From Treponemataceae bacterium (GTDB lineage: Bacteria; Spirochaetota; Spirochaetia; Treponematales; Treponemataceae): 64,000 nt of DNA. Of the stretch, positions 3,031-8,167 are shown in pieces (positions within the stretch are counted from its first letter, which is position 1; every line of letters starts with the position of its first letter). A model generated the notes under the pieces. It saw only the letters and a program-made list of their open reading frames with translations. It was not told where the DNA came from and did no database searches. The position numbers were made by a program, and so were the translations under genes. The DNA lies in the NCBI GenBank assembly GCA_024402455.1, contig JAKSTS010000001.1, forward strand, positions 1 to 64,000, written 5' to 3'.

Positions 3031-5442
3031 TTAAGAAACCTGCGTTCCTTTAAAAACATGGCAAAGAAGTTCAACTTCTTTTGGTACCTGTTCCTGTGCA
3101 GCATCGTTTGCAGATGCTGCTTTTTCAAGCTGAACTTCAAATTGAACATTGCTGTTTTTTAGTTTTGAAAAAACTGAACTGATGTAATGAATTTCAGGTT
3201 CAATCTGGTTTTTCAAAAAAGGTTTTTCAATAAAACAAGTCAGCTTATTTCCAGTAAATGACCAGCGGACTGCATTTAATAAAGCAGTTCCAATCAGTGT
3301 TTTTTCAGACGAAATCTGTTCAATTCCTTCGTGCAGAAAAGCGTCAAAATCATCTGAAGAAAGTGCCTGTTCTGGCTGGCTTGTTTCTTCATGCCTGTTT
3401 TCAGAAGGGTCAAAACTTTGAAGAGCAGAAGCCGAATTGTCAAAATCATCTTGATATTCTTCTATTTCTTCTGAATCTTCTGAAGGTTCATACTGTGAAA
3501 AATAAGGTTCGTCCGGCTGGTTGTTTTGCAAGGCTGTTCCAAAATTCTGCACGGCCTGTGTCTGCTGTACAAATTGAGCACGCTGTTCAGTTTGTGCTGC
3601 CTGTGCCTGGTATTGAACAGCTTGAACATTCTGTACATTTTGTGCCTGCGGAACGTTGATTTGTGCGTTCTGATTTGTGTGGAATGTTTCATACCCGGAC
3701 GCCTGCGGCAAGGTCTGCTGATTGTAATTTTGTGCAGCAGGCACTGTTTGCGGTGCTGCAGGTGCAGGCTGTATCGGGGCTGCATGGCTGTTTGCCATAT
3801 TCTGCCGGTTAGAAGATTTCGGTGGTTCTTCTCCTGCCTGGTCAAAAGCCAAAGAAGCTTCCTGCATGTTAATCTGAAAATTCGGTCTGTTTTGCGGTGC
3901 AGGTTTCTGCGGTTGAGAAAAGTTGCCGTAAGACATTTGATTTTGATGTGGTGCGGCATTTGTCTGTGCAGCAGGTTCAATTTTGCGGGTTTCCATTTGT
4001 TCTGCAGCAAAAGTATTAACCGGCTGATTTTGAACATGGTTCTGCTGAATTTCGGCTTGAACTGGCTGCTGAAACTGCGGCAAGGTCTGCTGTACAGGTT
4101 GAGTCATCTGCTGAACCTGCTGAAAAGATTGCTGCGGACGAACTTCTGTTATATTCCGTCTTATCTGTTCAAAAGGGTTTGTATTTGCTGCTGTTACGGG
4201 TGCGGTTTCAGGTTTAGTTGTGCTGAAACCGCATTGGGCTAAAGGGCGGTTTCCTCCTTGAGGAAGTTCCTGAATGTTCGGTGTTTCCATTTTTGCACCG
4301 GCAGCAAGAAGGTTTCTTGCAGAATCAACAGCTTTTTTGACTTCAAAAGGAGAAACATAACCCGAAAGATATGTAAGTCTTGAAAGTGCAAGTTCCAGTT
4401 CAAAACGTGGCGAAAGTGAATAGCGCACATCTCTAAAGAGCTGCAGAAACATTGAAAGAGCCCGTTCAAGTCTTATGGCGTCCCAGTTTGCAAGAACTTT
4501 TTGAGAAAACCGTGAAGAAGAGCGGCCAAGCAGAGATTCTTTAGTTACACCGCTTTGAATTAAAAGCAGGTTTCTTAAATAATCTGCAAAATTGATTATA
4601 AACTGGTCGATTGAAACACCTGTCTGCAATATTGAATCAAGCTTTTCTAAAGCTGTTCCGCTGTTGCCGTCAATAAAAAGTTCGCAAAGCTCATTAAGAT
4701 GGTCTGTGCTTGCAAGACCAAGCTTATCGCGGATTTTTTCATAAGTTATGTGATCGCCTGAAAAAGCCGCAACCTGGTCAAAAAGTGTATAAGCATCGCG
4801 TACAGAACCTGTTGATTCCCTTGCAATCCAGTAAAGGGCTTCGTCATCGGCTTTTATGTTCATTTCTGCGGCTGCATCTGCAAGCAGGTTTTTTACGACT
4901 TCTGGTGCAACAAGACGGAAATTGAACTGCTGGCAGCGGCTTTTTATTGTTGCCGGAACTTTGTGCAGTTCAGTTGTTGCAAAAATGAAAATGACATATG
5001 GCGGCGGTTCTTCGATTGTCTTTAGCAGTGCATTAAAAGCACTTGTTGAAAGCATATGAACTTCGTCAATTATATAAATCTTGTAACGTGAACTGTTCGG
5101 TGGAAAAAGGACTTCGTCTTTTATCTGACGCACGTCGTTTACGCTTGTATTTGAAGCACCATCAATTTCAATGACGTCCAGGCTTGTGCCGCGTGCAATT
5201 TCGCGGCAAGTGTTACATTCGCCGCAAGGAGTGGCGTTCGGGCCTTTTTCGCAGTTTAATGCTCTTGCCAGAATTCGTGCACTGGAAGTTTTTCCACATC
5301 CACGAGGACCAGAGAAAAGATATGCATGAGCAATTTTGCCTGTTTCAATTGCATTTTTGAGTGTTGCCACAACAAATTCTTGACCGACCAGGCTTTCAAA
5401 AGTCTGAGGTCTGCGGCGTGTTGCTGTTACTTCATAAGCCAT
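3031..5442 (-). CDS. dnaX: DNA polymerase III subunit gamma/tau
   Basis: 803 residues from the ATG at 5442. Seen: AAA+ clamp-loader core with Walker A GPRGCGKT (45-52), zinc cysteines C64, C73, C76 and C79, DEVH (126-129) and the sensor region ATTELHKVPATIKSRCQQF. Domain III runs to about 390. A very long low-complexity linker rich in Gln, Asn, Pro and Ala (about 395-690) follows, then an acidic stretch and a folded C-terminal domain of about 100 residues. DnaX is the ATPase of the clamp loader and bridges polymerase and helicase. I chose MAYEVTATRRR as the start: a longer frame begins 4 codons upstream (5454), but that ATG lies inside the -10 box of a promoter-like pair placed for a leaderless mRNA. 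No frameshift signal for a separate gamma form was evident. Confidence 0.96.
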   Translation of the reverse strand: MAYEVTATRRRPQTFESLVGQEFVVATLKNAIETGKIAHAYLFSGPRGCGKTSSARILARALNCEKGPNATPCGECNTCREIARGTSLDVIEIDGASNTSVNDVRQIKDEVLFPPNSSRYKIYIIDEVHMLSTSAFNALLKTIEEPPPYVIFIFATTELHKVPATIKSRCQQFNFRLVAPEVVKNLLADAAAEMNIKADDEALYWIARESTGSVRDAYTLFDQVAAFSGDHITYEKIRDKLGLASTDHLNELCELFIDGNSGTALEKLDSILQTGVSIDQFIINFADYLRNLLLIQSGVTKESLLGRSSSRFSQKVLANWDAIRLERALSMFLQLFRDVRYSLSPRFELELALSRLTYLSGYVSPFEVKKAVDSARNLLAAGAKMETPNIQELPQGGNRPLAQCGFSTTKPETAPVTAANTNPFEQIRRNITEVRPQQSFQQVQQMTQPVQQTLPQFQQPVQAEIQQNHVQNQPVNTFAAEQMETRKIEPAAQTNAAPHQNQMSYGNFSQPQKPAPQNRPNFQINMQEASLAFDQAGEEPPKSSNRQNMANSHAAPIQPAPAAPQTVPAAQNYNQQTLPQASGYETFHTNQNAQINVPQAQNVQNVQAVQYQAQAAQTEQRAQFVQQTQAVQNFGTALQNNQPDEPYFSQYEPSEDSEEIEEYQDDFDNSASALQSFDPSENRHEETSQPEQALSSDDFDAFLHEGIEQISSEKTLIGTALLNAVRWSFTGNKLTCFIEKPFLKNQIEPEIHYISSVFSKLKNSNVQFEVQLEKAASANDAAQEQVPKEVELLCHVFKGTQVS

Positions 5443-5449
5443 GCAAAAA

Positions 5450-5478
5450 AGCATAACGCAAAAACGCTTTGTTTACAA
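5450..5478 (-). promoter_or_regulatory. Putative leaderless promoter of dnaX
   Basis: On the minus strand TTGTAA (5473-5478), a 17-nt spacer, TATGCT (5450-5455), then 7 nt to the dnaX ATG (5442). Transcription would begin at or next to the start codon, and no Shine-Dalgarno is present. Confidence 0.55.
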
Positions 5479-5522
5479 GAACACAAAAGTAATTCATGCT
5501 CAGGATAAGGAGATGCAATTAA

Positions 5523-6059
5523 ATGAAAAAAATAATTATTTCTGTTATTCTATTAATAATTTGCTTCAGCGCTTTTCCTTTGGGCAGTCATGAGTCATTT
5601 GAAACTAAAATATTAAAACATCCGTTAGCAGAATCTTACGATTTTGATGCCAGTAATGATACTTTTGGCTATAATTTTATACTGAAGCTAAAAAATGGAC
5701 ATGAAATATATTTTAGAGGTGTTAAAGACGATTTAACTTTTAATAAATGGAGTGGAATAAGTCATATTAATGATGTGCAATTTTCTTGTACAGACTTTAA
5801 TCCTGTTAGCAATGAAAAGAGGGGGCATGGCTATATAAGGATAAAGGATATTTGTAAAGCAACAGGTACAAATTATAATGATGTTTTTTCTATATTGGAT
5901 AATTACAATGAATTTTGCAGACTATTGAACTCATTGCCATGGACTAAAGATGATTCTGCTGAAGAGGTATGTGCAAAATATACTGATAATTATTGTGTTT
6001 ATTTATATAGGGCTTATATGAGCGATGAAAACAAATTCATAGAAATCCCTGAAGAATGA
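5523..6059 (+). CDS. Hypothetical secreted protein
   Basis: 178 residues with an N-terminal signal peptide (MKKIIISVILLIICFSAFPLG; lysines followed by a hydrophobic stretch, cleavage near residue 20), so probably periplasmic or outer-membrane associated. The mature part is acidic and rich in Tyr, Asn and Asp, with several cysteines; no known domain was recognised. Start is supported by AAGGAG about 10 nt before the ATG. It is divergent from dnaX across 80 nt. The repeat mosaic begins within 40 nt of its stop, and the perfect hairpin at 6099-6125 could serve as its transcript end. Its higher AT content than neighbouring core genes is like that of other short secreted proteins in this window. 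Confidence 0.75.
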   Translation: MKKIIISVILLIICFSAFPLGSHESFETKILKHPLAESYDFDASNDTFGYNFILKLKNGHEIYFRGVKDDLTFNKWSGISHINDVQFSCTDFNPVSNEKRGHGYIRIKDICKATGTNYNDVFSILDNYNEFCRLLNSLPWTKDDSAEEVCAKYTDNYCVYLYRAYMSDENKFIEIPEE

Positions 6060-6098
6060 GTAATTTATAGTGCAGCAATCCACAGCAGATAAGTTCCT

Positions 6099-6125
6099 TG
6101 TAGTTTTTGCTTTGCAAAAACTACA
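6099..6125. repeat. Perfect 12-bp hairpin at the left edge of the mosaic
   Basis: TGTAGTTTTTGC (6099-6110) and GCAAAAACTACA (6114-6125) around a 3-nt loop. A related hairpin is at about 6599-6624. It may end the transcript of the gene at 5523-6059, although no U-run follows. Confidence 0.7.
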
Positions 6126-6293
6126 GCGTTTCGCGGGCTGCAGTCTAATCTGTAGAACCAATCCCAAAGCGAAACCCAAAACAAGCAACATTTCGCACCA
6201 GTCCTTACCAGTTTGGTTTTCGCTTTGGAGGGCTACCACATACTTTTGTTAGATTTAGCCCAAATTTGCAGCACAACCCCAAAGCGAAACCGT

Positions 6294-6525
6294 AATTAGC
6301 ATTTGCTAATAACCCGAAAAGATGTCTTTTTGCACAATTAGCAAATGCTAACGGCCCGAAAAGATGTCTTTTTTGCCAATTAGCAAATGCTAACGGCTCA
6401 AAAAGATGTCTTTTTTGTCAATTAGCAAATGCTAACGACCCAAAAAGATGTCTTTTTGACAGTTCGCATTTGCTAACGCCGAAAATTTTGTTTTCTGTCA
6501 TTCGCATTTGCTAACGGCGATAGCC
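6294..6525. repeat. Tandem array of ~42-bp units, 5 full and 1 partial
   Basis: Units start at about 6294, 6336, 6378, 6420, 6461 and 6500, with lengths 42, 42, 42, 41 and 39 and a short last unit. Each full unit holds the dyad TTAGCAAATGCTAA (TTAGCATTTGCTAA in unit 1) followed by a second dyad AAAAAGATGTCTTTTT. Units 5 and 6 are diverged (TTCGCATTTGCTAA). The units are similar enough to suggest recent expansion. Confidence 0.88.
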
Positions 6526-6703
6526 GCACACCTGTCTTCACCAGTTTGGTTTTCGCTTTGGGTTAATCACATACTTTGGGCTATTTGGCGAAAACAGTCA
6601 GATTTTTGCTTCGCAAAAACTGACAAATCTGCGAAAAACAAACTGGCAGGTTTCGCCGAATTCTCCCAAATTTGCAGCACAACCCCAACGCGAAACCTGA
6701 AGT

Positions 6704-8167
6704 TTACTGCGGAAAATTTTCGCCGGTTAAATCTTGAAAAGCTTTTTCTGTTGGGAATCTTTCCTGTGCTTCTGCAACTACTTTGCGGATTTCCGAAGGT
6801 TTTCCGTTTGTTTTAAGATATTCAACATAGCCTGTGTAATAAACTTTTAAATTTGAAACAAGAACTTTGTCTTTAGGCATATATTCAAGGCAGTCTAAAG
6901 TTGTTTCAATGGCTTTTTTGTATTCTTTCTTGTTATAAAGCAGATTGCTTTCTTTTACGGTTACGCTTCTGTAAAGTTTGAGGATGTCTGTTTTTGAAAG
7001 AACATTTGCATCCAGTTCAGAAAACAAAAGCTTGCGTGCATCATCAAATTTCTGTGCATCAATAAATTTAACTGTCAGATTGTTTGTCAGCATAAGTCTG
7101 AAACGGATGTATTCGCCGTTTTGTTGTGTAACGCCATAATTTAAAGAAGTTGCCAGCGCATCATAGCCAATCTGATAGTCATCTGCTTTTTCTGCTGCAT
7201 TTACAGCGGCAAGATATGTGTTATTTAAAAGAGCACGTTTATTTTGTGTCTGCGGCAAATCCTGAATCCATTTAAAAGATTCTTCGTAACGGCCTTTTTT
7301 GTTGTTTTCCCGCGACATGTAGCTTGAAAGGTTTGTCAGTGCAGATGTGTAGCTGTTTTGACCAGATTCATCATCACGAAGAATGTTCAGAATATATGCA
7401 AGATTTGTAGCTTCAATGTATCTTTTCTCTTTTGTTTTGATGAAAACATCATTTTGAACAACAAGCGCAAGCAGTTTTTTTATTGGAATGTTATCAAAAA
7501 GCTTGTATCTTCCAGGTGCAACATAAGTAAAACCTGTAGATTTTCCAAAATTTGACTGAAATTCTTTTTTGCTTCCCGGATCAAAACCGTAAAAATTGGT
7601 TGTTTCAACAAAAACATCTTTGGAATCTATCAAGGCTTTAATTAAAACGTGGTCGCTTGTTTCAATCGGCTCGCAGGCAATTCCACACCTTGTCAATAAA
7701 GCCGCATAAAGCAAAGATGCGCTTACGCAGTCATAAGTCTGTGTATCTTTCAAATCTGAAAAAATAAAGCTGTTTTTGTTATAGCGGCGCAGAAAAATTC
7801 GGTGCATCTGCTGATTGATTGTGTCTGCCAGCAGATACTGTGATTCATATGATTTATCTTCAAAAACTTCTGGAGCAACTGCGTTTGCAACTGCTTCGTC
7901 AAAAAGTTCTGCCTGTTCTTCATAAAATGCAAGCAGTTCATCTTTGCGGTCATTATTGCTGCTCACAGTTATAAAAGCTTCAATCAGTTCTCTGTCTGTA
8001 TATTGAGAAAAGTCTGAATCAAGCAGTTCCTGAAATTCCGGTGATATTGTACACACAAGCTGCATTGTGTCTTCGTAAGAACCAAGGTCTGCCTGTGTGC
8101 AGAAAATTGCCTGTGCAAAAGTTAAAAAAACAGTTAAAAAACAGCAGATTTTACGTGTATGTTTCAT
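6704..8167 (-). CDS. Secreted transglutaminase-like protein with TPR-like C-terminus
   Basis: 487 residues. A signal peptide (about 1-23) predicts export. Residues 110-230 resemble a transglutaminase-like or SirB1-like fold: DTQTYDCVSASLLYAALLTRCGI gives a candidate nucleophile Cys147 at a helix start, SDHVLIKA gives His173, and VFVETTNFYGFDPG supplies the third element. The second half (about 265-480) is helical and repetitive, like TPR units. Papain-fold proteins of this kind in bacteria are proteases, amidases or non-catalytic scaffolds; which applies is unknown. No Shine-Dalgarno precedes the ATG at 8167. The 3' end abuts the repeat mosaic, whose right arm ends just past the stop codon. 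Confidence 0.78.
   Translation of the reverse strand: MKHTRKICCFLTVFLTFAQAIFCTQADLGSYEDTMQLVCTISPEFQELLDSDFSQYTDRELIEAFITVSSNNDRKDELLAFYEEQAELFDEAVANAVAPEVFEDKSYESQYLLADTINQQMHRIFLRRYNKNSFIFSDLKDTQTYDCVSASLLYAALLTRCGIACEPIETSDHVLIKALIDSKDVFVETTNFYGFDPGSKKEFQSNFGKSTGFTYVAPGRYKLFDNIPIKKLLALVVQNDVFIKTKEKRYIEATNLAYILNILRDDESGQNSYTSALTNLSSYMSRENNKKGRYEESFKWIQDLPQTQNKRALLNNTYLAAVNAAEKADDYQIGYDALATSLNYGVTQQNGEYIRFRLMLTNNLTVKFIDAQKFDDARKLLFSELDANVLSKTDILKLYRSVTVKESNLLYNKKEYKKAIETTLDCLEYMPKDKVLVSNLKVYYTGYVEYLKTNGKPSEIRKVVAEAQERFPTEKAFQDLTGENFPQ

Follow-up and report, generated by a model that had tools for sequence, protein, structure and literature searches.

The window, a stretch of 64,000 nucleotides from a Treponemataceae bacterium, carries an insertion between dnaX, whose start codon was assigned by homology to position 5442, and a gene for a 487-aa protein (Table 1). 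The insertion consists of a gene for a 178-aa protein and a non-coding island of mosaic layout, in which REP-like arms flank a core of palindromic units repeated in tandem. In three relatives (L001, L002 and L004) the two flanking genes lie a few tens of base pairs apart with nothing inserted. A search with the 487-aa neighbour returned four loci, all in Treponema/Spirochaetales records; identity of this protein to that of the window is 76-81% in genomes G001-G004 and 49% in G007. The same gap in L003 (G003) holds a different hairpin array of 80-bp units (L003:7485-7784) that ends at the contig edge; the gap is perhaps an insertion hot spot.

Table 1. Features of the insertion and its boundary gene, in window coordinates
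Feature	Position	Strand	Remarks
Insertion	about 5480-6703		about 1.2 kb more than relatives, between dnaX and the 487-aa gene
178-aa protein gene	5523-6059	+	no Pfam family
Perfect 12-bp hairpin TGTAGTTTTTGC/GCAAAAACTACA, left arm	6099-6125		
X element (REP-like, about 47-bp imperfect hairpin), left arm	6129-6174	-	weak HMM match, E 0.22
33-bp arm word, left copy	6196-6228	+	
40-bp arm word	6252-6291	+	copies at 6658-6697 (90%) and 6137-6176 (63%)
F1 tandem array, six A-dyads	6296-6514		steps 42, 42, 42, 41, 38; loops 3 AAAT, 3 ATTT
Four B-dyads AAAAGATGTCTTTT, alternating with A-dyads	6317-6456		6317-6330, 6359-6372, 6401-6414, 6443-6456
33-bp arm word, right copy	6529-6561	+	91% against left copy
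X element, right arm	6550-6593	+	weak HMM match, E 0.52
Hairpin word TTTTTGCTTCGCAAAAACT, right arm	6603-6621		
X element, right arm	6651-6694	-	weak HMM match, E 0.11
487-aa gene	6704-8167	-	bounds insertion

The 178-aa protein is suspected from its N-terminus to be secreted, and 24 relatives of it were found. Eight further loci, spread over G001, G002, G003, G007 and G008, carry DNA related to its gene, none of it seen in the dnaX/487-aa gap. In G007 a homologue is followed by arm words resembling those of the window. Members of this family, which is scattered through the genus, also lie near 41-bp-type arrays in G001:C12, G002:C51 and G008:C293.

Arms and core of the island

The mosaic of a 42-bp tandem array and repeated arm words outlined in the preliminary description is confirmed: for the A-dyad, the B-dyad and both long words alike, 0 of 100 window shuffles reached the observed counts, and within the window all matches to these, with mismatches allowed, fall inside the island. 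Its view that the island looks unlike an insertion sequence, a CRISPR or a coding VNTR also stands, with no sign of an insertion sequence and a whole 42-bp unit that repeats with no unique spacers. The dispersed repeat family that it proposed is borne out by related words elsewhere, and the comparison with related strains that it called for found the locus absent from three relatives; both outcomes run counter to its condition for refutation and favour the repeat reading.

The 19-nt hairpin word occurs at 6104 and 6603 in copies 95% alike. By sequence, the arms are like X, a REP-like hairpin element that is dispersed and forms a repeat family separate from the core. At E<0.01, X has 22 matches in 370 kb of G001, 22 in 383 kb of G004 and 15 in 308 kb of G002, densities that, like the array counts, are biased because contigs (those of G001, G004 and G007) were partly picked for containing matches and contig starts favour repeats; at the same threshold it has none in the samples of G006, G007, G008 and of four other-genus genomes. 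Most matches (50 of 59) lie outside ORFs of at least 90 aa. An X match (E<1) lies within 150 bp of 4 of 7 arrays, against 17.6% of random large-gap blocks, a modest link in a small sample. An 84-86-bp tandem of two hairpins, one of them X-like, was seen at L133:2800-3046.

An integron would turn the 178-aa gene into a cassette and the arms into attC sites. Copies of that gene are scattered, complete IntI occurs in G001 and G002, and the Treponema chromosomal integrons described in the available part of PMC3607928 likewise place scattered small genes beside imperfect hairpins. Unlike these integrons, X does not follow, on reading its sequences, the AAC...GTT triplet order of attC given there, two of the eight genomes have an IntI that scores over the cut-off, and X is equally common in G004, which has none; an integron is thus a highly improbable source of the island. 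The integrase genes over the family cut-off are L069 and L070, in G002:C28 and G001:C95.

The A-dyads of the core start at 6296, 6338, 6380, 6422, 6463 and 6501; the first four are perfect (TTAGC-NNNN-GCTAA) and the last two (TTCGC-NNNN-GCTAA) have one broken pair. TRF calls the array at 6294-6485, with a period of 42 and 4.6 copies. The two dyads per unit at fixed spacing of the preliminary description hold for four units, in which 21.0 bp separate the centres of A and B, and fail for the last two, which are stepped by 41 and 38 bp and lack a B-dyad. Since any near-palindromic unit in tandem has a dyad at every half step, the 'double dyad' is readable as one palindromic unit, and the core unit can be read as a single palindromic 42-bp unit with asymmetric spacers.

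Among the roles suggested for the island at the outset, a transcription-end cluster finds no backing, a consensus scan of 5400-6900 giving 0 terminator-like sites against 1.1 in shuffles. A protein-binding array is the candidate that we favour. The proposed check by RNA folding gave a positive result, the array folding better than 200 of 200 shuffles (z -9.7), and folding as DNA likewise surpassed 200 of 200 shuffles (z -8.1).

Relatives of the core array

Homologues of the core array, which we call F1, lie on contigs C57, C112, C172 and C195 of G007, the last two at contig starts; because C172 and C195 both begin within their arrays, the four contigs may represent three places. A covariance model run over 274 genomes, with 20 candidates scored per genome, placed F1 in G007 and in none of the others, and pattern searching yielded 14 matches on each strand of G007, plus a single site with two mismatches in G131. 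Compared with G001-G004, G007 stands further from the window (49% against 76-81% for the 487-aa protein), so that the distribution of F1 is patchy. In G007 as in the window, most F1 arrays lie next to the 3' end of a gene.

The A stem reads TTAAC/GTTAA in G007 (with TTCAC variants) and TTAGC/GCTAA in the window (with TTCGC). Across 35 dyads, the loop is AAAT in 19 and its reverse complement ATTT in 16, with the C57 array running in reverse and so swapping its loop labels. At the centre position of the F2 arrays, G stands in 9 of 16 cases and C in 7. A loop flip keeps the double-stranded site intact, merely reversed, and the two loop forms therefore amount to orientation-free sites, compatible with a symmetric reader of double-stranded DNA.

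Alternatively, the array could be transcribed and its hairpins act as RNA, perhaps bound by the DUF6261 protein introduced below. The RNA folding score and a paired replacement of A-U by G-C in the A stem speak for such an element; the similar score of the DNA fold, the loop flips, which alter an RNA loop and leave a double-stranded site as it was, the lack of any promoter-like excess around the island and Rfam matches that all fall below gathering scores speak against it, and we regard it as improbable.

Fixed-step arrays upstream of DUF6261 genes

When DNA sampled from the genus was scanned for tandem repeats, more arrays appeared, of different sequence and with steps of 40-42 bp. The genus sample, to which the window was added, gave 28 rows for non-coding arrays of 2.4 copies or more; 13 of these have periods of 37-42, some rows describing one and the same array, compared with 0 of 3 rows in 520 kb from four other-genus genomes. 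Another five rows of non-coding tandem arrays in the genus sample have a 23-bp period, perhaps a further repeat class.

Three of the fixed-step arrays precede, by about 100-200 bp, genes that all belong to the Pfam family DUF6261 (PF19775). Within the genus, 10 of 11 DUF6261 matches are closely preceded by a 41-bp array with some 4-9 copies, and the eleventh has 145 bp of upstream sequence only. DUF6261 is present in 27 of the 274 genomes of the family sample, with at least 114 matches in total and some single genomes reaching 13 copies or more; the 11 of 392 genomes that pass its cut-off in the phylum sample all belong to the family set already.

To cover lags of 15-80 bp, up to 450 bp upstream of each gene was scanned against 60 shuffles per locus. 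Upstream periodicity was significant in 47 of 50 testable loci (0 of 60 shuffles each), with best lags of 41 (25 loci), 42 (19), 40 (2) and 43 (1), although these loci come from related genomes and paralogues and are not independent cases. Of the 50, 47 derive from the family's genomes (49 fetched) and three from other records; L206 and L243 (145 and 162 bp upstream) and L234 (below the family cut-off) had been excluded. The three misses are L217 (stop at codon 3), L219 (5'-truncated) and L224 (299 bp upstream). Among 400 control upstream regions, a few of which may come from other genera, 12 passed z 6 at any lag, three of them at 40-42 and one at 43; the three are two DUF6261 genes and a stray array, L163. 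Degenerate arrays such as that of L228 are overlooked by TRF.

The association extends to Prevotella nigrescens (NZ_CP082843.1), in which a 41-bp array of 3.6 copies with the dyad TGCCGAA-N-TTCGGCA precedes a DUF6261 gene. The lag test was passed weakly by two human-gut records; L248 and L249 reached z 6.1 and 6.9, dyads being not significant in either, and L249 is a 23%-identity homologue that carries no weight in the protein tree. The Prevotella record (L247) also contains an apparent DUF6261 C-terminal relic at about 3312-3497 and a tandem of 3.3 copies of 120 bp at 4093-4488.

Symmetry is less uniform than step. A column-permutation test found a significant dyad in 24 of the 47 gene-linked arrays and whole-unit symmetry in 10 of 47, and a strong second dyad at the half step occurs only in F1, F4 and L202. 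Promoters between array and gene were predicted in 7 of 47 loci compared with 26% of shuffles, showing no enrichment.

Step follows protein phylogeny. The best split of the protein tree, chosen as such and with support of 0.99, separates 25 labelled loci of clade I (23 with 41 bp, two with 40) from 21 of clade II (19 with 42 bp, one with 43, one with 41), and the lone 41-bp locus within the 42-bp clade is that of Prevotella. G151 carries both clades, each with its matching step. Shared descent alone could account for this link. When 27 loci were paired and sorted by protein identity, array sequences matched (E<1e-5) in none of the 42 pairs below 70%, in 15 of 55 at 70-80%, in 38 of 79 at 80-90% and in 4 of 5 above; the letters of the array are thus lost faster than the protein sequence, while the step stays.

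Such arrays could also be a mutational by-product, slippage expanding a hairpin-prone unit and template switching perfecting its dyads and flipping its loops, with no function. Exact loop inversions would fit, as would CGTAAT/ATTACG and CGTCAT/ATGACG stems together within one array and unit numbers that differ between loci with a common neighbour (9 against 7 in L132 and L043, about 8 against 6 in L203 and L204). This account, however, leaves unexplained both the retention of step across unrelated sequences and the tie to one gene family, and we consider it quite unlikely.

The AlphaFold2 model of DUF6261 is an all-helical bundle (pLDDT 91, pTM 0.67), with 0 PDB matches at E 0.001 and no apparent DNA-binding fold. 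A co-directional ORF follows within 450 bp at 37 of 50 loci. Pfam assigned 7 of 21 hand-picked downstream ORFs to BspA-type LRR and two to FGE-sulfatase-like families and left two without a family; the remainder include Ank, Sel1, fn3, SH3, TonB-plug, radical SAM and TIR. Among L208-L246, a BspA-type LRR gene often comes next after a clade II DUF6261 gene, and an FGE-sulfatase-like one after two clade I genes. In L228 (2112-2984) a CAP12/Pycsar TIR-domain gene directly follows the DUF6261 gene.

Six arrays besides that of the window have no DUF6261 gene in view. For five, the best match to a gene-linked array falls between E 1e-77 and 1e-10: L171, L163, L176, and also L108 and L188, which sit at contig ends, so that a DUF6261 gene may lie beyond. 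The sixth, L095, matches a gene-linked array weakly (2e-5).

The window array and known systems

The window array has a period of 42, within the 40-43 bp range of the class and equal to the step of clade II, whereas the ten gene-linked arrays of its own genus all have 41, a point against membership. As no window ORF matches DUF6261, the array is not filed as a gene-linked member, and its sequence matches are confined to the F1 arrays of G007, a genome with two DUF6261 genes; none is to a gene-linked array. Its place in the class accordingly has to be judged from geometry and from the other stray arrays, on which it probably belongs there.

An ordinary REP/BIME-like family of dispersed palindromes, whose similar step would be a coincidence unrelated to the DUF6261 arrays, is an alternative to which the REP-like arms, the position of F1 arrays next to gene 3' ends and the lack of sequence kinship with gene-linked arrays all lend weight. 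F1 is nevertheless head-to-tail with a fixed step and, besides the window, occurs in 1 of 274 genomes; Y1 transposase (PF01797) was found in 2 of 8 genus genomes, although G007 is among them, and of the six further arrays without a visible DUF6261 gene, five match gene-linked ones. We therefore hold such a family to be unlikely.

Our main reading, to which we give a probability of roughly 45%, is that the core is a stray member of the class, separated from its gene, and most likely a double-stranded platform for a symmetric DNA-binding protein, the binding function being held with less confidence than class membership. An array would regularly stand upstream of a DUF6261 gene, at a distance of up to about 250 bp, and be read by DUF6261 or by a partner protein. 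With about four helical turns from unit to unit, bound copies would lie on one face; upstream of DUF6261 the array might serve autoregulation or co-operative loading, and away from it would be a stranded or dispersed copy. That a protein reads the array, that this reader is DUF6261, and any role of the array are each steps that we infer. More tentatively, DUF6261 and its upstream array may constitute an undescribed two-part system in Treponema-type spirochaetes and Prevotella, in which the protein would read the spacing (41 or 42 bp by clade) and local dyads, the unit sequence would be free, diverged copies would keep private arrays, and the window array would be a dispersed copy.

What makes the island interesting is the class behind it: arrays of fixed step that go with DUF6261 and hint at a gene-plus-array system that is new relative to the literature collection searched. 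In the titles, abstracts and some passages that this collection covers, the association is not described, and DUF6261/PF19775 appears in one paper, as a single table entry. A family of unknown function thereby gains a near-constant genetic partner, an array with its step kept within a base or two, and the association is a direct lead to its job. Fixed-step arrays are also a repeat class that annotation misses, as in Prevotella, where the annotated start of the DUF6261 gene (L247:4743-5696) extends into the array. Loop inversions and paired stem changes provide a natural record of palindrome maintenance.

The F plasmid centromere sopC consists of 12 units of 43 bp, each with an inverted repeat. 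The DUF6261 arrays are like such plasmid centromere and iteron arrays in having tandem dyad units, a similar step and the gene of a candidate binding protein alongside; unlike sopC, they occur several per genome, vary in sequence by copy and are partnered by DUF6261, a putative binder, rather than ParB. Neisserial intergenic mosaic elements have repeat arms around other repeats between genes, a likeness to the island in layout. REP/BIME elements, as portrayed in the excerpted text of PMC3733652, are short extragenic palindromes, dispersed and in mosaic with other short words, as here. They bear an unpaired GTAG (or CGTC) tag at the palindrome foot, which the core lacks (PMC3733652); the left arm hairpin does contain GTAG, but base-paired. 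According to the same excerpt, some REP/BIME families are tied to one gene family, and the core differs from them in being head-to-tail, in its fixed step and in its putative partner, which is not the Y1 transposase (RAYT; PMC3733652).
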